A stretch of DNA of 34,521 nt from Acidobacteriaceae bacterium. GTDB taxonomy: Bacteria; Acidobacteriota; Terriglobia; Terriglobales; Acidobacteriaceae. Below the pieces are notes generated by a model. It saw nothing but the letters and a program-made list of their open reading frames with translations. It was not told the origin of the DNA and searched no databases. Shown one piece after another: positions 3,210 through 21,933 of this stretch (position 1 is the first letter of the stretch; each line of letters begins with the position of its first letter). A program made the translations under genes and the position numbers. Where the stretch lies: contig PKUV01000155.1 in NCBI GenBank assembly GCA_003131315.1, positions 1-34,521 of the forward strand, read 5' to 3'.

Positions 3210-5111
3210 TCACTTGACGATAACCACACCCTTCATGCCGTTGGCTTCATGCAGCGTGCAGACGTAGCGGTAAACCCCGGGAACCGTGAAGACACGGGTG
3301 AAGGCCTGGCCAGGCTGCAGTAAACCCGAATCAAATGGTTGCACACCCGGAGGAAGCTTTACGTCTGCCATCGTCAAGGCCTTACTGGCATCGTCCACCA
3401 CATTGTGGAAAACCTGCGAAGAGTTTTTCCAGACTACCTTCTGCCCAAGATTAACCGTGATCGTCGCCGGCAGAAAGGCCATGTCGCTCATGTTCACAGT
3501 GCCTTTCTCTGCTGTTGCGGGTTTTGGCAGTGCTTTTCGAAGCATGCCGGAGGTTATCTTCACGGAGCAGTTGGGTGCAAGTCGATCCACCGTGTCCACT
3601 ACGAAACTGGGGACCCGGGGATCTTCCACCGCCACAACGCTGCCAAAATGTCCACTCACATGGACCAAGCGGTTCGCATTTTCCGAGAACAATATGCCTT
3701 CCACGCGGTAGGTTTTCGCGGATGGGAGCGCTTTAAGCATCACCCGCCCGTCGCTCAGGAATGTCAAGCATCCGTTGAGTTGGGTGGAACTGGGAATCGA
3801 GGGCTGCGACGTCGATACGAGGGGCATGGGCTGTGAGCCGCGTCTGCGCCCCACCTTCACGTTGGTCACGTTCATTGCCATGCTGCGGATCGAATTGGGA
3901 ATAGCTTCTTCTCTCCCATTTGACGGGCTGGGGAGGAGGTCGACAGCGCTCGTCGGATCAATACCGCTCTGTCCCTCTCCAGCCGCAGTATCGGCCCGGG
4001 TCATGCCAGTCACCCAGGCGGCGGATTCCTTTACCGAGGGATCCGACGGAGCCGGCCCGGCATGCATCAAGGCCGCGTTCTCTGTACCAGTAACCTCAAG
4101 CGTCGCCATCAGGCCCTTGGCCATCCGTGCCATAGCGTGATCCATCATGGTGAACTGCCCCGGCACACTCGCCGTAAGTTCCAGGACAGCTGCGCCACCC
4201 GGCGGCACGCTGACTGTCTGAACGCCGGTCAACGGAGGCGATGTCAGTGAGCCCAGCGTATAGTCCCGCGTGAAGATTTCCCCCACCACGTGTAGCGAAG
4301 ATGTGGCATTCGGGCCCGCATCACCAAAGAAGACCCGTACCGTTTCGCCCACGTTGGCGTGCAAAGGGTGTTCCTTGGTAAGAGCATCAACCGCACCGTT
4401 GAACACGAAATATTCGGGGTCTTCCTGCATGAGCTTTGCATCACTGAACTGCTGCAAGCCCGTCTTACCCTTGGGCGTGGTGGTATAGATTTCCCCCTGC
4501 ATGATGTAGTACTCGTGATCCACATGAGGCAGTCCGCCCTCTGGCTCGACTAGGATCAGGCCGTACATGCCGTTAGCAATGTGTTCGGCGACCATGGGCG
4601 TGCCACAGTGATAGACAAACAGCCCCGGCGTTGTGGCCTGAAACGTAAAGATCTTCGACTGACCTGGGACCGCCTGCGAGAACGCAGCGCCGCCACCCGG
4701 ACCGAGAGCAGCATGAAAATCAACCGAGTGGACCATATGGCTGCTGGTGTCATTCCGAAGAGTGACCTCCACGGTGTCACCCTGTCTTACCCGGATCATG
4801 GGGCCAGGTACCTTTCCATCGAAAGTCCAATAGCGATAGGTAGTACCGATTGAGGGATCCAGTTGGCCAAGCACTTCTTCAGCAGTGAGCGTTACATGGA
4901 CTACAGTTGGTGTCCTGTTCGCAACCGGCGGCGGAACGTCGGCCGGATCGCGAACGATATCCGCTGTTTTCGACTCGGCTTTTGCAGCCAGCTTAGCGTG
5001 GACAGCAGTTTGTGCCGCCAGCGGTTCGGCGCCAGTCACCATGACCAGGATCAACAGGAGACCGACAATTGCCGCCATGAATGAAATTTCATAATGAGTT
5101 CTTATTCCCAT
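3210..5111 (-). CDS. nirK: copper nitrite reductase-like protein with extra C-terminal cupredoxin domain
   Basis: A 633-residue exported protein with a hydrophobic segment at residues 12-34. Two cupredoxin domains (about 70-345) carry the full NirK ligand set. The type 1 copper ligands are His128, Cys169, His177 and Met182. The type 2 ligands are His133 (with Asp131), His168 and His274 in SLHVVGE. This predicts periplasmic reduction of nitrite to nitric oxide. A linker and an unassigned domain (about 440-520) follow. A final plastocyanin-like domain (about 535-633) has His569, Cys618, His621 and Met626 in VCTLHEANGMKG. The extra domain probably delivers electrons, as in known fused nitrite reductases. 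It is transcribed away from the PAS-LuxR gene at 5251, a natural candidate regulator. Multicopper oxidase is the alternative, but the ligand spacing fits NirK better. Confidence 0.85.
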   Translation of the reverse strand: MGIRTHYEISFMAAIVGLLLILVMVTGAEPLAAQTAVHAKLAAKAESKTADIVRDPADVPPPVANRTPTVVHVTLTAEEVLGQLDPSIGTTYRYWTFDGKVPGPMIRVRQGDTVEVTLRNDTSSHMVHSVDFHAALGPGGGAAFSQAVPGQSKIFTFQATTPGLFVYHCGTPMVAEHIANGMYGLILVEPEGGLPHVDHEYYIMQGEIYTTTPKGKTGLQQFSDAKLMQEDPEYFVFNGAVDALTKEHPLHANVGETVRVFFGDAGPNATSSLHVVGEIFTRDYTLGSLTSPPLTGVQTVSVPPGGAAVLELTASVPGQFTMMDHAMARMAKGLMATLEVTGTENAALMHAGPAPSDPSVKESAAWVTGMTRADTAAGEGQSGIDPTSAVDLLPSPSNGREEAIPNSIRSMAMNVTNVKVGRRRGSQPMPLVSTSQPSIPSSTQLNGCLTFLSDGRVMLKALPSAKTYRVEGILFSENANRLVHVSGHFGSVVAVEDPRVPSFVVDTVDRLAPNCSVKITSGMLRKALPKPATAEKGTVNMSDMAFLPATITVNLGQKVVWKNSSQVFHNVVDDASKALTMADVKLPPGVQPFDSGLLQPGQAFTRVFTVPGVYRYVCTLHEANGMKGVVIVK

Positions 5112-5250
5112 CTCGCATCTCTTCCTGCCGCCGTACCGTCTCTTCTTCGGAGTGTTGGTTTGCCGGCTGACTTATACTGAATCGGGAGGCGATGGGTCTC
5201 AATGGAGCATCCGTACCACTCGCATAGGCAGTTGTCACAAGGACGGACAA

Positions 5251-5904
5251 ATCCTGGAAAGTGAACTATTTAACCTGCTCCAGCACACTTCGGACGCGGC
5301 GTTCTCGGTTACCGAAGAAGGCGAAATCGTGTCCTGGAACAGAGCCGCCGAGAAGCTTTTCGGCCATCCGGCCGCCGAGGTGGTCCACAAGACGTGTTAC
5401 GAAATACTAGAGGGTATGGGGCCCCTGGGCACACGCGTCTGCCATCAGCGCTGCAGTGTGGCCGAATGTGCCGGCGGTAATACTGAGATCCCGAACTTTG
5501 ACATGAGTGTGAAGATCCGTTCAGGGCAGTGATTGTGGATCAATATGTCCACACTTGTGTTCGATAACCAGCGCACTGGGCGTCGTCTTCTAGCACACCT
5601 TGCCCATGATGTCACAGAACAGAAAAGGAGCGAGGAACTGGTGCACAAGGTGCTCGATCTGTCGAAGCAGCTCAGTTCGGTTGGCGAAGTCTCGGTGCGT
5701 GCAGCGTCGATATCCCCATTGTCCGAACAGGAGAGGCACATTCTCCGTTTGTTTTCCGAGGGAAAGGACAGTGACGACGTCGCCCGCATCCTAGGCATCA
5801 GCCCGCAAACCCTCCGCAACCACCTCCACCACATCAACCAGAAATTGCGGACTCACAATCGCCTGGAAGCGGTCATGAATGCCATCCAGCGTAAACTGAT
5901 CTGA
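5251..5904 (+). pseudogene. PAS-LuxR transcriptional regulator, interrupted by an in-frame TGA
   Basis: The reading frame aligns end to end with the intact 218-residue regulator at 15245-15901: a PAS domain with Cys49, Cys64, Cys68 and Cys73, then a LuxR-type helix-turn-helix (ILGISPQTLRNHLHHINQKL). A TGA at 5530-5532 falls between RSGQ and LWINMS, exactly where the paralogue has Arg94, so one CGA-to-TGA change explains it. The paralogue's start aligns with an ATC at 5251-5253. A good AAGGA sits seven bases before it, suggesting the start codon was also lost, although a GTG at 5152 is in frame upstream. The second half could begin at TTG 5533 but has no ribosome binding site. I call it a recent pseudogene. 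It is divergent from the nitrite reductase gene. Confidence 0.8.
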
Positions 5905-6055
5905 AATCTTGGCTTCCCCTCGACTTATCGGCCCCGCTTTGGCGCCCGGTCACGCGCATTTCATATCCCCAGTACAGCTGTCCCATTGTGACTGTGGCAC
6001 ACAAGCGCTAAATCAGAAGTGGACGTTTCCTCAACTGCTCGCAGGAGCTGTGGTC

Positions 6056-6385
6056 ATGATCTCTCATTGTGCTAACCCAGGTTGCACGTTGCCGTTTCAC
6101 TACCGAAGGGGCGGGCGCCTTCATCGGTTCGACATCACATCCCCGAGTACGCCGTGTGCCAATGTCCCAAATGCCATCTGTAGTTTGAAACCGTCGCGTG
6201 CGACCGTATTCTTCTGGCTGTGTGATCGGTGCTCCTCGAAGTACTCGCTCAAGTTCAACTTTCGTGATGGAATCAGTCTCGCGCCGCTAACGGACCCCGC
6301 TAAGAAACTCAGCACTGCACCGGTGATTGCCGTGGGGGCTGCCACTCCAGACCAAGACGTCAATCCATCGCATCAGCGTCGATGA
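6056..6385 (+). CDS. small Cys-rich (probable zinc-binding) protein, copy 1
   Basis: This encodes 109 residues from the ATG at 6056, with AGGAG eight bases upstream; the longer frame from 5909 lacks homology before this Met. It is a paralogue of the protein at 14773-15069. Both share CANPxCxxPFxYxRGG at the N-terminus and a later FFWLCxxC. Conserved cysteines are Cys5, Cys10, Cys34, Cys42, Cys56 and Cys59; the Cys5/Cys10 and Cys56/Cys59 pairs could form a zinc ribbon. The last 30 residues are unrelated between copies. It follows the PAS-LuxR gene by 151 bases, the same order and strand relation as in copy 2. The function is unknown; a partner or effector of the regulator is inference. Confidence 0.75.
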   Translation: MISHCANPGCTLPFHYRRGGRLHRFDITSPSTPCANVPNAICSLKPSRATVFFWLCDRCSSKYSLKFNFRDGISLAPLTDPAKKLSTAPVIAVGAATPDQDVNPSHQRR

Positions 6386-6865
6386 CGCACGGCAACGGAA
6401 TGAAGGACCTGATCTTCGTGGATGCGCGCAGCGCCACTGCCCTCATGGCTGCGGGCCGCTTTGCCTGTCGAACCCACCACTGAACCTGAGCCGCCGGCAC
6501 ACCTGAAGGCAAGGAAACAACGTTAGTAGTCTAGGGCACATCCATATGCATGCAGCAGGCAATATCTTTGATCTCCCGACGGGACGCGTGCTCGTGCTGG
6601 ATCGCGCGGTATCCCATGACGTCGAAGCTCTGGCGGACGGTGCCTTTTTTGCTCACGGTTGCGCGACCTGAGACGATTCCCTCTGAGCCATGACTTCCCG
6701 CGGGCTCTGAAACGAATGGACGACACTTTCGATATCACATTCGTCATTGGAACGAGTATGGATGGTCTATTGCCGCGGAAGGCGACCTGAGCAATATTAG
6801 TCCCATTGGGCCGTGTAGTGATGTGCATGAAGCGTGCAGTCGGTTGGCGTTGCGAGGAACCAACA
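6386..6865 (+). other. 480-base gap holding a cupin relic and no intact gene
   Basis: Between the small Cys-rich gene and the DoxX-like gene I see no frame with a convincing protein. A 33-codon frame from ATG 6382 (MTHGNGMKDLIFVDA...) overlaps the preceding stop and resembles nothing I know. The only recognisable content is the cupin remnant at 6507-6671. A long minus-strand frame (6523-7080) is the antisense shadow of the DoxX-like gene and this relic. Confidence 0.6.
6507..6671 (+). pseudogene. decayed small cupin gene (remnant 2)
   Basis: One plus-strand frame reads VSSLGHIHMHAAG, then FDLPTGRVLVLD, then RAVSHDVEALADGAFF before a TGA at 6669-6671. It aligns without a large gap to the C-terminal half of the cupin at 18375-18803 (LELSAGQLLALDRGVPHDVEAL), including the LDR.V.HDVEAL signature. 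A TGA at 6504-6506 closes the frame upstream. The N-terminal half of the barrel cannot be found and the final WPTG segment is lost. It therefore reads as a truncated paralogue, not an expressed gene. Confidence 0.6.
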
Positions 6866-12408: not shown

Positions 12409-13248
12409 TCATCCCTTGTAAGTCACCACACGCCCCCAAAGACTTGCGGTTTCCCAGATGCCCGAGCGCAGGCATTCCAACTGGACGATCTGACTGTGAT
12501 CCACGAAGAGGTTTACCTCGGGCCCCCAGTTCTTGATGTACCAGGCGAAAACCTCCGGATCGGCAGCCTCGAACATCACTTTCGCCAGGCCAATTGCGTC
12601 GATGACCCGGGCGGGCACATCTGTACGCCACCGTTTCACGTTTTCTGTGATGCCTTCGGACTCGATCATGATCATGTAGGCCCCAGCGTCCAAGAACCGC
12701 TTCGCCAACCGGATGGGCCATTCTGGGTCGCGAGTCCCTTCCGTCTCCAGTTCTTCTGCTCTGGTAGCGCCGCCAGCCCCAAACTGAATGCCCACCTCGG
12801 GCTTGGCCTTAAGCCCGGCCTTCTGCACCTGTTCCACCAGTCGCAGCCAGTCGTCGGCGGGCAAGGTAATAAAACCGCTCGAAATCTCGATAATGTCAAA
12901 TCCCAGTTCCTTACACTCCCGGATATAACTTTTCGCCGCGTCCTTGCCCTGCATGAGCACCTGCTCGAGAAAACCTCCGGTCGATACGAGGACCCCGTGC
13001 TCGTGGCACAACTTGGTGATTTCCAAAACAGCACGACGCGGCATCAGCGTAAATGACCCGCCGGCAAACTTCAGCGAATCCACATAGCTGCCCATCGTGT
13101 GGAGGATGTCCTCGAGACAATGCCTGCCCATCGGTGTGTAGTACGGCCCACGGATCTCCGTGATCCCCTCGGTCCTCGGCTTTCGCTGCCGCTCATTCAC
13201 TCGCAGGAAAGAGAATGCACGTTCGTCCGCAACTTGAACGGTTGCCAT
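12409..13248 (-). CDS. comA: phosphosulfolactate synthase-like protein (ComA / HSA32 family)
   Basis: A 279-residue TIM-barrel protein starting at ATG 13248, with AAGGAGAG nine bases upstream. It matches the ComA family, which joins sulfite to phosphoenolpyruvate in coenzyme M synthesis and includes plant heat-stress protein HSA32. Recognisable blocks are TMGSYVDSLKFAGGSFTLMP (about 50-70), HEHGVLVSTGGFLEQVL, ELGFDIIEISSGFITLP and the late NLFVDHSQIVQLECLRSG. Bacterial members outside coenzyme M users are common and mostly uncharacterised, so the reaction should be treated as probable only. The start lies three bases after the stop of the PrpD gene, so the two are almost certainly one operon. 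The symbol marks homology. Confidence 0.8.
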   Translation of the reverse strand: MATVQVADERAFSFLRVNERQRKPRTEGITEIRGPYYTPMGRHCLEDILHTMGSYVDSLKFAGGSFTLMPRRAVLEITKLCHEHGVLVSTGGFLEQVLMQGKDAAKSYIRECKELGFDIIEISSGFITLPADDWLRLVEQVQKAGLKAKPEVGIQFGAGGATRAEELETEGTRDPEWPIRLAKRFLDAGAYMIMIESEGITENVKRWRTDVPARVIDAIGLAKVMFEAADPEVFAWYIKNWGPEVNLFVDHSQIVQLECLRSGIWETASLWGRVVTYKG

Positions 13249-13251
13249 ATT

Positions 13252-14658
13252 TCAACTCTCCTTGTGCGCAAGTACAACATGCGAGGCATCGGAATCCGGG
13301 CCCACGGCGCCCAGACGTTCCATCAACTCGCGAACCGAAACCTGCTCCAGATTAGCCACCGCATCAGCAACCGCGGTACGTTGTGCTGCGCTTGCATACG
13401 GTGTGGCAATCTCATTGAACTTCTGAATGGCCATTTCCCATGACATCGGCCGGGTGAAGAACCCTTCGTAATCCTTGGTTTCCTGTTCGAGCACGCGCCC
13501 GTCCTTTAGGGTGATCTTCACGCGACAAGGCATCTCGTTCGGAAAGCGGTCCGAGAAGAGCTTGCCCGGTTGAACCGAGACTTTGCCGAGAAGTGCTTGC
13601 ACATCCGCGCGCCGAATGCGCTCCTGTTCGTACTGTTCAGGCATCACCTGACCATCAAGAATCGCTACGGCGAGCACGTACGGCAGACTGTGATCCGCCT
13701 GTTCTTTGGTGGAAACAGTCGTCTTGTCGCCCTCTTCTCCCCCACCAATGATGTTGTAGGCAACATCAAAAATTTCCACGTCCACTCGCTTAATATCGGT
13801 ACTCGAGAACTGGTACCGCCGGAGCAGGGTAAGGACGGCTTCGATGGCAGTTTGCGAATGGATCTCGGCGTTGTACTTCTTAACCGTGGTCCGCCCCACA
13901 CACCCAAGGTCCTCCCCGGACCAACTCACCTGGAAACAGCCGGTGATGGCGTCCATGAGTCCCTTTTCTCCTTCAATTACCTCCAGAGGACCCGTGATTC
14001 CGTGCCTGGCCAGCAGTGTGGCACGAGTACAACAAGCTGCCAGGTTCGGGTAGGCGAGGCCCTTCCAATGTGACAGTTTTCCGGTCCGGGTCACCCGCAA
14101 GGCGTTGAACGCTGTCCCACTAATGGCGATTGCATTGGCGGTCTGCGATGGATCGAGCTTTAGGATCCTGGAGACCCCTGCAGCGACCCCATAGGCGCCT
14201 TGGACCGTGTGGTCAAATCCTCTGGCTCGGACTGGGGCAACATCGCATAATCGGCACTGGACCTGGTAGGCGACCGCCAGCGCGGTCATTAGGTCGCGAC
14301 CCGTGGCCCCGATGTATTCACCTGCTGCCAGGATCGCTCCCAGATTGTCGCTGGGGTGGCAGCTTTCTCCCCTGGCCAAGTAGCTGTCATTGAAATCGAG
14401 GTAGCGTATCAGCGCACTGTTGTAGAGAACAGCCCGGTCAACGTCAGTGGACCCACCACCAATCAAGGTACAGCTGCCCGTGCTACCTAGCTCATTGATG
14501 TACTCACGTATCATGCGTATGGGCTCCCCATGGAGTGCGCCCAGACCACAGCCCAAAGCATCCACAATACGGATCTTGAGTTGCTGGCGGGTGTCGGACC
14601 CTAGAGCCTCAAATCGTGCTCCGCTGGCGAATGCCGCCATTAGCTCCACTTGGCTCAT
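13252..14658 (-). CDS. MmgE/PrpD family protein
   Basis: A 468-residue protein from ATG 14658, with GAGGG just upstream. It has the full MmgE/PrpD fold: an N-terminal all-helical domain with the signature YLDFNDSYLARGESCHPSDN (Asp88, Asp91, His101, Asp104 region), FDHTVQGAYGVAAG and KLSHWKGLAYPNLA, and a C-terminal alpha-beta domain (about 270-400). Characterised members are 2-methylcitrate dehydratase, cis-aconitate decarboxylase and iminodisuccinate epimerase; sequence alone does not choose between them. No methylcitrate cycle gene (prpB, prpC) is near. Instead it abuts a phosphosulfolactate synthase-like gene, so a substrate in sulfonate or phosphoenolpyruvate-derived metabolism is worth considering (inference). 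Confidence 0.85.
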   Translation of the reverse strand: MSQVELMAAFASGARFEALGSDTRQQLKIRIVDALGCGLGALHGEPIRMIREYINELGSTGSCTLIGGGSTDVDRAVLYNSALIRYLDFNDSYLARGESCHPSDNLGAILAAGEYIGATGRDLMTALAVAYQVQCRLCDVAPVRARGFDHTVQGAYGVAAGVSRILKLDPSQTANAIAISGTAFNALRVTRTGKLSHWKGLAYPNLAACCTRATLLARHGITGPLEVIEGEKGLMDAITGCFQVSWSGEDLGCVGRTTVKKYNAEIHSQTAIEAVLTLLRRYQFSSTDIKRVDVEIFDVAYNIIGGGEEGDKTTVSTKEQADHSLPYVLAVAILDGQVMPEQYEQERIRRADVQALLGKVSVQPGKLFSDRFPNEMPCRVKITLKDGRVLEQETKDYEGFFTRPMSWEMAIQKFNEIATPYASAAQRTAVADAVANLEQVSVRELMERLGAVGPDSDASHVVLAHKES

Positions 14659-14772: not shown

Positions 14773-15069
14773 TCACGCGCTAAGCTCTTGCGCTTCTGCC
14801 GCTCCAATCACATTGCCGTGTCGTTCTGTACTCTTTAGCGGCACAACTGCAAGCCCCTTGTACGGATCGAAGCTCAGAGTCATGGTCGAGCAACAGGTCT
14901 CGCACAGCCAGAAAAACACTGAACTCCTGGTCGGCTTCAGCTGGCAAATATGATCCGGAACGTCCAGGCAAGGCTCACATGGCGTCTTCACATCACACCG
15001 AAATAACGTCCCGCCTCTCCAGTAGCGGAACGGCGCAGCACAGGTGGGATTGGCACAAGTCTCAACCAT
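14773..15069 (-). CDS. small Cys-rich (probable zinc-binding) protein, copy 2
   Basis: A 98-residue protein from ATG 15069, with AAGGGAA about seven bases upstream. It is a paralogue of the protein at 6056-6385: the shared CANPTCAAPFRYWRGG start, ICQLKPTRSSVFFWLCETC core and spacing are plain. Cysteines are at 5, 10, 25, 31, 34, 42, 56, 59 and 60; those shared with copy 1 are 5, 10, 34, 42, 56 and 59. This suggests a zinc ribbon from Cys5/10 and Cys56/59, with a second cysteine set in the middle. It lies 175 bases downstream of the intact PAS-LuxR gene on the same strand. The function is unknown. Confidence 0.78.
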   Translation of the reverse strand: MVETCANPTCAAPFRYWRGGTLFRCDVKTPCEPCLDVPDHICQLKPTRSSVFFWLCETCCSTMTLSFDPYKGLAVVPLKSTERHGNVIGAAEAQELSA

Positions 15070-15244
15070 TCGGAATTCCCTTCTAGCCCTCGTCCACCCT
15101 CTATTTGTTCACTCGTGCCTGTTCTTTGAAATAGTTCGTTCATACTCGTAACAGAAACAACCATCATGTCGAAGGAAATGAGGTTTGGGTTGAGAGATCT
15201 CGAACCAGGCACCCGGCGTGAATGATCGGAGGAAAGGTCAGGAG

Positions 15245-15901
15245 CTAGATTAGCTTGCGCCGCATGGCGTTCATTACGGCTTTAAGACGGTTGTGAGTCC
15301 GCAGCTTCTGGTTGATGTGGTGAAGGTGATTCCGCAGGGTTTGAAGGCTGATTTGTAGACTCTTGGCAATCTCTGGAGAGTTCTTGCCAGAGGCGAATAG
15401 CCTCAGAATCTGCAACTCTTGTTCGGAAAGCGCCGACACAGGAGATGCCGCCGGAACAGCTTCTTCGGCAACCTTGCTGAATTGACGGGACATCTGCAGC
15501 AGCTTCTCCGTCACTCGTTCCGCAGTCTTCTGCCGAGTGATGTCATGCGCCAGATGAATCACCAGGCGGTGTTGGTTCCGTGGGTTCTGCCACACCACAG
15601 TGGACATGTTGACCCATAGCCGCTTCCCGGAACGCAGGCGGACCTGCAGATCGAAATTCGGGATCTCCGTTCGCCCACCAGTACACTCCAGAATGCTGCA
15701 ACCCTCATGACACACCTGCGTCCCAAGAACACCCCGTCCGTGCAGGATCTGGAAACAGCTTTTGCCAAGAACCTCGGAAGAGGAATACCCAAACAACCGT
15801 TCGGACGCCCCGTTCCAGGAAAGGATCTCCCCCTGCTGACTCACACTGAAGGCAGCATCTGTGGTCCCTTCAAGGAACGTAAACAACTCATTCTCGAGCA
15901 T
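15245..15901 (-). CDS. PAS-LuxR transcriptional regulator (intact copy)
   Basis: A 218-residue cytoplasmic regulator from ATG 15901, with AGGAG nine bases upstream. Residues 1-125 form a PAS domain (DAAFSVSQQGEILSWNGASE, FGYSSSEVLGKSCF). It has an unusual cluster of Cys49, Cys64, Cys68 and Cys73 (VCHEGCSILEC) before the LWVNMSTVVW strand. A short helix links to a LuxR helix-turn-helix at about 155-215 (LSEQELQILRLFASGK, SLQISLQTLRNHLHHINQKL). No receiver domain or transmembrane segment is present, so sensing is likely direct by the PAS domain. The four cysteines are conserved in the broken copy and could sense redox state or bind a metal or Fe-S cluster (inference). It is followed by the Cys-rich protein. 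Confidence 0.85.
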   Translation of the reverse strand: MLENELFTFLEGTTDAAFSVSQQGEILSWNGASERLFGYSSSEVLGKSCFQILHGRGVLGTQVCHEGCSILECTGGRTEIPNFDLQVRLRSGKRLWVNMSTVVWQNPRNQHRLVIHLAHDITRQKTAERVTEKLLQMSRQFSKVAEEAVPAASPVSALSEQELQILRLFASGKNSPEIAKSLQISLQTLRNHLHHINQKLRTHNRLKAVMNAMRRKLI

Positions 15902-16098
15902 CCCCAGGCTCCTAAATGCACGTTGGCAGTGACCAGTACGAACAGTCCATCGAAATAAATATGCCCTGCTACGAGTATACGATCACAATTGGGCTGCACA
16001 GCAACACTTCACCGTGCTGTGGCCCGGGCTGGGCGACTGGTCATCAGTGCCACCGAAGATTTTTCGTGTACTTTTCAAAGAATTGAGGAAGAGCCCCA

Positions 16099-16560
16099 AT
16101 GGAACAGAAAAAGGCATACCGCACGTTTCAGTTCGGGAACGTCGTCGCTTGGAAATCCGAGTTTCGCGGAACATTGTCCGCTTCGGGACACCCGAACGTC
16201 GAAGTCGGGAATCCGCCGGCATTCAAGGGAACTCCTGACGTGTGGTCTCCAGAAGACTTGTTGATTGGAGCGTTGAATGCTTGCCTGATGTTGACGTTCC
16301 TTTATCAGATGCAGCGCCGACACCTGGAAGTGGTGGCTTACGAAAGCAGCGCCCAAGGCACGCTCGAGCACCGAGACGGAAAGTGCCGTGTCACTGGGAT
16401 TGTAGTTCAGCCTCGTATATCTCTGAAATCCGACCACGATATTGAGGCAGCTCGTGAAGCGATAAAAGATACCGTCGACTCGTGCATGATCAGCAATTCG
16501 ATCCTCGCGACAGTTCAGGTGGATCCCCAATTTAATGCCCTTTTGACGGCTGCCCAGTAG
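16099..16560 (+). CDS. OsmC family peroxiredoxin-like protein
   Basis: A 153-residue protein from ATG 16099, with AGGAAGAG upstream. It has the OsmC/Ohr fold with both redox cysteines: Cys62 in SPEDLLIGALNACLMLTF and Cys129 in DTVDSCMISNSI. Such proteins reduce organic hydroperoxides in the cytoplasm using lipoyl or other thiol donors. The N-terminus (YRTFQFGNVVAWKSEFRG) and missing long dimerisation segment fit the short OsmC-like branch rather than true Ohr. It is the only plus-strand gene between the PAS-LuxR regulator and the SDR; it is divergent from the regulator (gap of 197 bases), which may control it. Confidence 0.85.
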   Translation: MEQKKAYRTFQFGNVVAWKSEFRGTLSASGHPNVEVGNPPAFKGTPDVWSPEDLLIGALNACLMLTFLYQMQRRHLEVVAYESSAQGTLEHRDGKCRVTGIVVQPRISLKSDHDIEAAREAIKDTVDSCMISNSILATVQVDPQFNALLTAAQ

Positions 16561-19042: not shown

Positions 19043-21334
19043 TTACCGCTCAGCTTGGGGGTTGTCGCGAACTCTTCGCGTGGCAGCCACTATGTTCGTC
19101 AGGGCCAAACGGACTTCCTCCCAACCGCGTGTCTTGAGGCCGCAATCAGGATTGATCCAGAGCCGGTCCCGCCGGAACACTCTCAGCGCTTTGTTGACAA
19201 GAGTCTCGACCTCTTCTGAACTCGGTACCCGCGGGGAATGGACGTCGTACACGCCCGGACCGATGCTGTTGGGATAATCCTTCTCGGCAAACTCGTCCAA
19301 CAACTCCATTTCTGATCGTGCTGCTTCGATGGAAATCACATCCGCATCCATTCGTTTTACAGCCTCCAGAATGACCTGGAACTCGCTGTAGCACATGTGG
19401 GTATGGATCTGCGTCTCATCCTTAGCCCCTGCAGTTGCGAGCCTGAACGCGTCTACCGCCCATTGCAGATACTCCAGCCGATCGGATTTGCGCAAAGGCA
19501 GGCCTTCCCGCAGAGCGGGTTCGTCCACCTGGATGACGCGTATTCCGGCAGCCTCCAAATCCTTCACCTCATCCCGTAGAGCCAGCGCAATCTGGAAGCA
19601 AGTGTCGGCGGGTGTCAGATCGTCCCGCACAAAAGACCATTCGAGCATGGTTACCGGGCCCGTCAGCATACCCTTCACCGGCAATCTGGTCAGCGATTGG
19701 GCATAGCGTGCCCAGGCCACGGTCATGGGTCGTGGGCGTGAAACATCGCCAAAAAGAATGGGGGGCTTCACGCATCGCGACCCGTAGCTCTGGACCCACC
19801 CGTTGCTGGTGAATAGAAAGCCCTTCAGTTGCTCACCGAAATACTCGACCATGTCATTGCGCTCAAATTCGCCATGCACCAGCACATCCAGCCCAATCTC
19901 CTCCTGGATTCGTATCGTGTGCTTAATTTGATTTCGCAACAAATCCTCGTATTGCGTCTCGGGCAGCCTTCCAGACCGATATGCGGCGCGCGCCTGGCGT
20001 ACCTCACGGGTTTGCGGGAACGAACCGATCGTTGTAATCGGCAAAAGTGGCAACGGGGTAACACAGGATTGCTTGCTGGTCCTCACGTCAAAAACACTGG
20101 GCCGGCTGAACATCTCGTGTGTGATGGCCGCTACCCTCTGCCGTACGGCAGGCTCGTAGACGCGCGAATCGCTTCGGCGTTCGGCAAGTACTCGGCCGTT
20201 CTCCCGAAACTGCTCCATAACCTCGGGCGAAGGGTCGGTGACCGCTCGCGCCAGCAGTTTGACTTCCGCCAGCTTCTGCTTTGCAAACGCGAGCCAGTTC
20301 CGAACGTGCGGGTCGAGATGGCTCTCCCCATCCAGATCAACTGGCACGTGCAGCAGAGAGCAGGAGGGAGCAATCTGAACACGGTCCGGACCCAGGCGAC
20401 CGATTGCGTCTCGCGCCTGTTTGAATGCTCGGTCGAGGTCCGTGCGCCAGATGCCACGACCATCAACCAGCCCGAGCGAAACCGTGAGATTCGCCGGCGC
20501 CTCGGTCAATGCAGGGAGAAGTTGGTCAGGGGCGCGGACCAGGTCCAGGTGCACGCCCGCCACTGGAAGGCTGAGCGCTCTACCTAGGTTTTGCCGCAAC
20601 CCGGAAAAATATGTTGCTAGGAGAAGTTTCAATCCGGGAGCGCAACCGACGAGCTGTTCGTACGCTTTTCCAAACAGTGCCAAATCGAATTCGGCAAGAT
20701 CTAAACCAAGGCACGGCTCGTCAATTTGTACCCAGACCGCCCCGGCATGCTCCAAGTCTTTGAGCAGCTCGCAGTAGACTTCAAGTAGTGCTTTAACAAT
20801 AGCCCCGCGATCAAGGCGCTGACTGCGGTCCTTGCCAAGCAACACAAATGACACCGGGCCGAGCAGCACGGGCCGGGTCATCAAGCCGAGCGCTTTCGCC
20901 TCAAGAAACTCTTCGACTGGCTTGTGGCTCGCTACCCGGAAATCCATCCCGGCCTCAAACTCGGGAACAATATAGTGATAGTTGGTATCGAACCACTTGG
21001 TCATTTCCATTGCGGGGGCTGAATCGTTTCCTCGTGCCATCGCGAAGTAAGTGGTTAAGTCGACCCCATCTGGTTGGTGTCCGTAGCGCGCTGGCACTGC
21101 CCCGACCAGTACTGCCGTGTCTAGCACGTGATCGTATAGCGAGAAGTCATTGGACGGGATCTGGTCAATGCCCGAATCTGCTTGCATTCGCCAGTGCAGC
21201 TTCCGGAGCTCGCATGCAGTGGTCTGTAGTTGTTTTGTCTCACTGTTACCAGACCAGAACTGCTCCAGAGCAAACTTTAATTCCCGATGTGCCCCGATAC
21301 GAGGAAACCCGAGATTGCCTGTCACCACTGCCAT
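19043..21334 (-). CDS. metE: cobalamin-independent methionine synthase
   Basis: A 763-residue enzyme from ATG 21334, with GGAGGGG two bases upstream. It transfers the methyl group of 5-methyltetrahydropteroyl-glutamate to homocysteine, giving methionine in the cytoplasm. Both barrels are present: the N-terminal half (GNLGFPRIGAHRELKFALEQ) and the catalytic half (ITTIGSFPQTREVRQARAAY). Zinc ligands are His646 and Cys648 in IHTHMCYSEF, Glu670 in SIEAARSE and Cys731 in NPDCGLKTRGW. Length is usual for the family. A short hairpin lies just ahead of the ribosome binding site. I saw no match to a cobalamin or SAM riboswitch by eye. It marks the edge of the stress-gene region and looks like ordinary core metabolism. 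Confidence 0.97.
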   Translation of the reverse strand: MAVVTGNLGFPRIGAHRELKFALEQFWSGNSETKQLQTTACELRKLHWRMQADSGIDQIPSNDFSLYDHVLDTAVLVGAVPARYGHQPDGVDLTTYFAMARGNDSAPAMEMTKWFDTNYHYIVPEFEAGMDFRVASHKPVEEFLEAKALGLMTRPVLLGPVSFVLLGKDRSQRLDRGAIVKALLEVYCELLKDLEHAGAVWVQIDEPCLGLDLAEFDLALFGKAYEQLVGCAPGLKLLLATYFSGLRQNLGRALSLPVAGVHLDLVRAPDQLLPALTEAPANLTVSLGLVDGRGIWRTDLDRAFKQARDAIGRLGPDRVQIAPSCSLLHVPVDLDGESHLDPHVRNWLAFAKQKLAEVKLLARAVTDPSPEVMEQFRENGRVLAERRSDSRVYEPAVRQRVAAITHEMFSRPSVFDVRTSKQSCVTPLPLLPITTIGSFPQTREVRQARAAYRSGRLPETQYEDLLRNQIKHTIRIQEEIGLDVLVHGEFERNDMVEYFGEQLKGFLFTSNGWVQSYGSRCVKPPILFGDVSRPRPMTVAWARYAQSLTRLPVKGMLTGPVTMLEWSFVRDDLTPADTCFQIALALRDEVKDLEAAGIRVIQVDEPALREGLPLRKSDRLEYLQWAVDAFRLATAGAKDETQIHTHMCYSEFQVILEAVKRMDADVISIEAARSEMELLDEFAEKDYPNSIGPGVYDVHSPRVPSSEEVETLVNKALRVFRRDRLWINPDCGLKTRGWEEVRLALTNIVAATRRVRDNPQAER

Positions 21335-21369: not shown

Positions 21370-21933
21370 CCAGATCAGTGTCTCGCTTTTGAAGCGGCCC
21401 TCACCCGTTTCTCTCCTAAGTCCCGAGCTATGCCAATAGTCTATTCGTACCGCAGGAGTGGTAGAGACATGCACCATTTAGACGCGGGCCGCAGCCGGTG
21501 CATGGGCGATCCGACACATCGCAGAATTCGTGGATCGGGAATTCTGTAGGTTCCCAGGGTTTCCCAGCTGCACCACAGGTCAATGTCCTAATCAATCGAT
21601 ACGCTGAACCGTAATCAGAAGAGCCTCTAGGACGACTCTTTGGACTATCGAACGCTTCTCTTACGCCGCACAATCCGGCACACTTTTCGCACATATGGAG
21701 TCGCAAATTGCCTGAGTTTGCAGCGCGTAGAGGAGAAACAACGGATGGTCAACCAGAAGAGCAAGCCGCCCAAGTGGCATAGTCGCGGAGGGCTCGCCAG
21801 AGCTCATGCCCCGAACGTGGCCTCACGGGCGGCTGCGGCGCTGATGGTAACCTGCTGATCCGTGGAGAAGGAAGACGATGAACTTCCCCAAAACGGCCCT
21901 CGCCTACCGAATGCTCTGGCTGCCCGCAACTCG
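21370..21933. other. 564-base stretch without a supported gene
   Basis: Upstream of metE I find no convincing protein. Two weak candidates exist. A minus-strand frame at 21428-21706 from a TTG contains several CxxC pairs (MCEKCAGLCG, PCTGCGPRL), but it has no clear ribosome binding site. A 37-codon plus-strand frame at 21745-21858 has AGGAG about ten bases before its ATG, but its composition (Ala/Arg/Lys-rich) is not diagnostic. The metE promoter should lie in the first 150 bases. Confidence 0.4.

Follow-up and report, generated by a model that had tools for sequence, protein, structure and literature searches.

The window, the whole stretch of 34,521 nucleotides analysed here, is part of a 6.0-Mb genome drafted in 194 contigs. 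It holds two loci in which a gene of the PAS-LuxR type is followed on the same strand by a small gene for a cysteine-rich protein. In the first locus, regulator copy 1 (5251–5904, + strand) precedes a small gene of 109 codons (6056–6385, +); in the second, an intact regulator of 218 residues (copy 2, 15245–15901, −) precedes an open frame for a 98-residue protein with conserved cysteines (14773–15069, −). Gene order, relative strand and spacing agree between the two pairs, as an earlier note on this DNA had described, with gaps of 151 and 175 bp. The paralogy that it claimed for both members was also borne out, the regulators being 62% and the small proteins 48% identical. Divergent from regulator copy 1 lies nirK, a copper nitrite reductase gene of the NirK/AniA type with a C-terminal cupredoxin domain (3210–5111, −). 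Residues 44–355 of its product match the solved NirK structure 6tfd (E = 1.8e-124); the copper ligands were located by eye only. The window further encodes an OsmC-like protein (16099–16560, +) and the cobalamin-independent methionine synthase MetE (19043–21334, −), both considered below as candidate targets. Behind small copy 2 lie an MmgE/PrpD-like gene (13252–14658, −), recognised by eye from its likeness to a Pfam-tested gene of locus L267, and a phosphosulfolactate synthase-like gene (12409–13248, −; by eye), which may share one transcript. An Rfam scan of the window gave no match at the gathering threshold, ruling out a known RNA element such as a cobalamin riboswitch before metE.

The earlier note had taken the two loci for two copies of one module. 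Both small genes and regulator copy 2 are indeed open, but regulator copy 1 is broken. Its codon at 5251–5253 is not a start codon, while ATG occupies that column in 25 of 26 other relatives (the match of the 26th begins further in), and an in-frame TGA at 5530–5532 cuts the gene into two pieces, in which Pfam also detects the PAS and GerE domains. Compared with two relatives, copy 1 shows 24 and 27 codons with a changed residue against 55 and 62 silent ones; between those two relatives the numbers are 10 and 58. By these counts, replacement changes are in excess in copy 1. Single-base errors are possible in a draft, yet the two lesions together with the replacement excess mark the gene, judged from its sequence, as a pseudogene, and an intact two-copy module in the window is thus ruled out. 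Small copy 1, beside the dead regulator, is still open, most likely starting at the ATG at 6056 (the list of open reading frames also permits a longer version from a TTG at 5909). It is 82% identical to its nearest relative, in locus L061 of another genome, against 48% to copy 2, which excludes a recent tandem duplication in the window. Overall, the copy-1 locus appears to be decaying. Behind small copy 1, we also noticed by eye a cupin-like remnant (6540–6671, +) that looks like the cupin-like gene downstream of the small gene in locus L277.

We then examined how general the pair is. At a cut-off of E = 1e-6, the home genome yields three PAS-LuxR genes of this family: both window copies and one on contig C114. 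A small gene stands behind all three, so the pairing goes beyond chance; the C114 pair is intact. Four of the seven small paralogues in the home genome have no adjoining PAS-LuxR gene of this family. Across 81 genomes (the home genome and 80 relatives), a regulator profile found the family in 16 genomes at 21 places. In this regulator-led scan, the small gene lay directly behind the regulator on the same strand at 9 of the 21; one of the other 12 (G009:C3) stops at a contig end and cannot be judged. After removal of duplicates and addition of loci from a scan led by the small protein, the pooled set comprised 129 small-gene places and 27 regulator genes. Fifteen of the 129 places are adjoining same-strand pairs with gaps of 96–206 bp, six of them (L061, L063, L065, L066, L071 and L073) coming from the scan made with the small protein. 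Most members of the small family therefore lie far from a PAS-LuxR regulator, and a general tie between the two families is ruled out. In a tree of 122 of the 129 small proteins (seven rows left out), which has few columns and a bootstrap that had not settled, all 15 adjacent members fall into one clade of 25 (support 95/91), to which both window copies belong. The observation that the note had named as its own refutation, a small protein usually distant from PAS-LuxR genes, thus holds for the family (15/129 adjacent) and fails for the clade of the window copies (15/25). Twelve of the 15 adjacent proteins, versus 6 of 109 others, have an additional cysteine pair, and those six are also in the clade.

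The small protein carries two nearly invariant cysteine pairs, C-x4-C and C-x2-C: among 124 of the 129 rows (five rows under 60 residues were left out), C5 and C10 are present in 122 and C56 and C59 in 123. Neither window protein matched any Pfam or NCBIfam family up to E = 1. The predicted fold is of moderate confidence (pLDDT 72.5, pTM 0.57) and matched no PDB fold at E up to 0.001 (best E = 2.2); a sequence search of the PDB returned nothing at E up to 5. For comparison, a zinc ribbon has two cysteine knuckles and a ribbon fold. Zinc binding, as proposed in the note, is suggested solely by the four nearly invariant cysteines, and a metal-thiolate effector is our guess at the function of the protein. 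All 50 relatives from a scan of genome contigs are titled Acidobacteriota; Terriglobia or Acidobacteriaceae predominate, and six bear the name Candidatus Sulfotelmatobacter. A profile search found the family in 46 of the 81 genomes: 45 of 49 from the same family of bacteria, none of 14 from the sister family and 1 of 18 additional genomes of the class. Two side observations concern this family. One reading frame (L205:6119–6562) contains two small-protein domains. Outside the clade, the small gene is often followed by a gene for another cysteine-bearing protein (23/104; for example L121:5715–6203), which forms a second orphan pair; the one member tested had no Pfam match.

Regulator copy 2 has an N-terminal PAS domain (PF13426, E = 9.4e-11) and a C-terminal GerE (LuxR) helix-turn-helix (PF00196, 8.1e-15), the domain order that defines PAS-LuxR one-component regulators; neither a receiver nor an acyl-homoserine-lactone domain was present among the best 25 of 26 Pfam families. 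Within the PAS domain, C49 and C64 are conserved in all 27 sequences, C73 in 25 and C68 in 22, and histidine 116 is kept in all 27. In NreB-like Fe-S PAS sensors, by comparison, the four cluster cysteines are invariant. The PAS cysteines and histidine 116 could hold a metal or undergo modification by NO. The predicted model of the regulator matches PAS and LOV structures in the PDB, including 6ide, 7dwm and 8a5r. The flavin adduct motif of EL222-like LOV-HTH proteins is GxNCRFLQ; by eye, the aligned stretch reads HKTCYDILEG or similar in the 27 sequences and lacks that motif, ruling out a LOV photoreceptor.

The neighbourhood of the regulator is rich in genes linked to nitrogen oxides. A copper nitrite reductase with cupredoxin domain is divergent from the regulator in 12 of 25 regulator loci, namely window copy 1, L111, L112, L113, L116, L117 (a fragment, counted here), L169, L191, L061, L063, L065 and L066. 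Nitrite reductases of this kind (E up to 1e-80) occur in 9 of the 81 genomes, 7 of which are among the 16 with the regulator. Genes for NnrS, hemerythrin, two cupin-like families, DUF488 and ferredoxin also recur in regulator loci. A hemerythrin, ferredoxin, cupin-like or DUF488 gene follows within 1.5 kb on the same strand behind 10 of 25 clade small genes, or possibly 9, since the gene in the hemerythrin cluster of L119 has no Pfam match, compared with 0 of 104 non-clade ones. In L277, a second regulator locus of another genome, the order is nirK, regulator, small gene, cupin-like gene and hemerythrin-like gene, the last two recognised by eye. NnrS-type membrane proteins were also seen beside nirK in L065 (1519–3150) and L111 (6594–8141); the former has an N-terminal DUF1858 match below the cut-off of that family.

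Alignment of the spacers between regulator and small gene revealed an 18-bp element, AGTAC-N8-CATTG, conserved in an otherwise diverged spacer. The same element, inverted and facing nirK, is found in each of the 12 nirK-divergent loci, always 33 bp upstream of the regulator start codon; its distance is about 90 bp to nirK and 44–83 bp to the clade small genes. In the window, operator-like sites face nirK (5200–5217, −), lie 67 bp before small copy 1 (5971–5988, +) and precede an open reading frame at 6806, which has no Pfam match, together with its run of + strand genes (6755–6772, +). A weaker site with 7 of 10 core bases lies 59 bp before small copy 2 (15129–15146, −). Between regulator copy 2 and osmC, a weak site facing osmC (15935–15952, +) scores 13.9 bits with the small-gene matrix described below, under the control maximum, and a site 100 bp before metE (21434–21451, −) scores 14.9 bits, likewise under the control maximum of 17.5, unlike the metE sites of genomes G053 and G055, which exceed it.

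Several counts bear on the specificity of the element. At least 8 of the 10 fixed bases were matched in 14 of 15 small-gene spacers, where 200 mononucleotide shuffles averaged 1.4 and never exceeded 5; for the upstream regions of the 27 regulators the count was 16, and the shuffles averaged 3.8 with at most 10. The consensus was derived from the very sequences counted. A matrix was next trained on the 15 small-gene sites alone and set against a control of 104 loci (1.12 Mb; maximum 17.5 bits). It returned 24 new sites above this maximum. Twelve of them precede nirK, four unlinked small genes, two metE (G053 and G055), one a CMD gene and one the frame at 6806; the remaining 4 are doubtful. Of the doubtful sites, two have no clear target, one falls slightly within a cytochrome c gene, and one is 214 bp upstream of a gene that looks, by eye, like nuoA. 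At least 5 of the 25 regulator loci (L192, L193, L194, L196 and L197) have no site above the control maximum, and the two nitrite-reductase genomes outside the regulator-bearing set (G030 and G049) have no strong site.

A second matrix came from the regulator side alone: its 15 training sites precede the regulator gene, 12 face nirK, and a poor pick (L195) had been dropped beforehand. It is less specific, with a control maximum of 20.1 and only 5 new sites above it. Before the clade small genes it separates two groups: 19 of 25 score 5.7–24.9 (18 of these above 10), and the remaining 6 score 1.5 or less and are located in six genomes in which no regulator was detected. All 19 site-bearing members are in genomes with the regulator (Fisher 5.6e-6, with kinship ignored). 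Site counts overstate independence, because many sites are alike by descent and the six siteless members represent only two tree branches; the relatives' genomes are also mostly incomplete assemblies, in which a missing regulator may sometimes be an assembly gap. Among non-clade small genes (n = 103), at least 8 exceed 5.7 and 3 exceed 10 (best 16.5), one of these three (L170) being in a regulator-bearing genome.

At the genome scale, a degenerate form of the element, drawn up after the sites had been seen, gave 9 matches in the home genome, 7 of them in the two window loci, against 1 for the reversed control; the exact core gave 13, with 4 in the two loci, against 4. Across the whole set, the degenerate pattern has matches in at least 69 of 81 genomes. 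A tight form was found in 13 of the 16 regulator-bearing genomes (28 sites; reversed control 8) and in 14 of the 65 genomes without the regulator (16 sites; reversed control 20). The regulator's own loci account for about 20 of these 28, and the 8 outside equal the reversed control (8), so this test mainly shows that the element goes with the locus. Elsewhere, single sites precede CMD, FAD/NAD reductase, MmgE/PrpD and FolE genes, all weak cases; several further matches that we examined fall inside genes, and a strong site of their own is lacking from most of the hemerythrin, cupin-like and NnrS genes. In L260 (position 3165; genome G034), where the regulator was not found, a site-like match that may be due to chance lies 183 bp before a formate-dehydrogenase-like gene (by eye).

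Over 33 sites, a weaker copy of the element 21 bp upstream stood out among the offsets tried (z = 4.2); its first half has a positive score at 16 of the 33 and the whole element at 4, and L119 has two perfect copies 20 bp apart. Downstream, 24 bp after the site, every one of the 15 small genes has an A (12 of them AA), and 11–12 of 13 nirK genes share a GTATA box. This A/GTATA position would fit the −10 box expected for an activator bound over the −35 region. The L277 locus, which lies outside the training sets, has the gene layout of the other loci, with both sites present.

Of the three roles that the note had offered for the small protein, partner, co-sensor or target, the last gained support from the common operator-like element before the small gene and nirK and from its absence before clade members in genomes where no regulator was found. 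The small gene probably adjoins the regulator because it is controlled by it, along with nitrite reductase and other stress proteins; under such control, the pair would be a regulator beside its own target. We consider it likely that the PAS-LuxR protein acts as a one-component activator, that its regulon responds to nitrogen oxides or redox state, and that the small protein is a dedicated target. In the proposed mechanism, the regulator, a one-component transcription factor and most likely an activator, would use its cysteine-bearing PAS domain to detect a signal from nitrogen oxides or redox state. Its binding site, AGTAC-N8-CATTG, would lie directly upstream of the −10 region in target promoters, and a weaker half-site would often stand 21 bp farther up. 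The targets would be nirK and the small cysteine-rich gene and, in the window, probably also metE and osmC; in some genomes, the small gene would head a run with ferredoxin, hemerythrin, cupin-like or DUF488 genes. Binding, activation and the nature of the signal, like metal binding by the small protein, are what we infer. The small protein would serve as an effector of the regulon, perhaps of a metal-thiolate kind, and need not bind the regulator. Within the window, the copy-1 regulator is dead while its putative operators and targets remain, and copy 2 and the C114 copy could act on them in trans. A place for metE among the targets would be understandable: N2O inactivates the cobalamin-dependent methionine synthase, and a denitrifier is sensitised when metE is deleted (PMC13059711).

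The same regulon could instead answer to peroxide, general thiol stress or low oxygen; this is a variant of the preferred reading, whose probability therefore overlaps with it, and we hold it possible on a lesser footing. OsmC and CMD (AhpD-like) genes among the candidate targets would suit such a signal, and PAS domains can carry many ligands. Nitrogen oxides are favoured by nirK as the commonest named neighbour (12/25 loci), by NnrS and hemerythrin genes nearby, and by metE, which fits protection against N2O (PMC13059711). A physical partnership, in which the small protein is a co-sensor of the regulator, such as a metal-binding co-regulator or an anti-activator, and the pair is kept for that purpose, appears unlikely. 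The 15 same-strand pairs with their gaps of 96–206 bp, the confinement of adjacency to one small-protein clade and the conserved cysteines in both proteins would all agree with it. Yet the small gene is missing from the stretch retrieved around eight regulator genes in seven loci (L169, L171 twice, L193, L194, L195, L196 and L197) and from the last 584 bp of L192; in L116 and L170 the only one stands at a distance. Moreover, the sister-family genomes G050, G052, G053 and G055 carry the regulator and no small gene at all, and unlinked clade small genes still keep the site. Least probable is a mere conserved cluster of stress genes with the pair functionally unlinked and the element belonging to another regulator. 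In its favour, stress genes abound in the window and in its relatives, few small-family members adjoin the regulator, and the element does not outnumber its reversed control beyond the regulator loci. Against it, the element before clade small genes tracks the presence of the regulator, and it is fixed 33 bp before the regulator start codon in the 12 nirK-divergent loci.

The proposed activator and its regulon resemble several known systems in part. PimM-family PAS-LuxR regulators of Streptomyces are likewise one-component proteins with PAS and LuxR-type HTH domains, with a site in the −35 region; that site is a 16-bp palindrome, CTVGGGAWWTCCCBAG, in polyene and other antibiotic clusters (PMC9774167), unlike AGTAC-N8-CATTG before nirK, metE and stress genes here (consensuses compared by eye). 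The quorum regulator VqmA, a PAS-LuxR protein, and the LOV-HTH protein EL222 share the domain order, and the predicted regulator model matches their structures; here, in contrast, the LOV adduct motif is absent, site and regulon differ, and the PAS domain has extra cysteines. The nitrogen-oxide regulons of NsrR, NnrR, DNR, NorR and HcpR overlap in targets such as nirK and nnrS (PMC1274295), but their regulators belong to other families and act at different operators, such as CTTGATnnnnATCAAG and gATGyAT-N5-ATrCATc. By eye, AGTAC-N8-CATTG also differs from the consensuses given there for the CRP/FNR, Rrf2 and sigma-54 nitrogen-oxide regulators (NnrR, DNR, NsrR and NorR). DksA-type small zinc proteins offer a possible analogy, being small, with conserved cysteines and a nitrosative-stress setting (PMC4815678), whereas the small protein here has no Pfam match and combines C-x4-C with C-x2-C. 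In titles and abstract openings of papers from one open-access library, we found no PAS-LuxR regulator of nitrite reductase in Acidobacteria.

The arrangement points to an undescribed nitrogen-oxide response in soil acidobacteria. More tentatively, PAS cysteines would sense NO or nitrite directly, a direct-repeat operator would put nirK and metE under joint control, and a metal-thiolate protein peculiar to the lineage would buffer the signal or feed back on the regulator; this fuller version we regard as doubtful. If it is true, NO would be made while methionine synthesis is protected from N2O and NO. Acidobacteria are abundant soil bacteria, and how nitrite reduction and defence against NO are controlled in them is, to our knowledge, poorly understood. 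The predicted operator, regulator and gene set make this control directly testable, tie an orphan small-protein family, detected here only in Acidobacteriota, to a function, and suggest that metE may belong to a nitrogen-oxide response.
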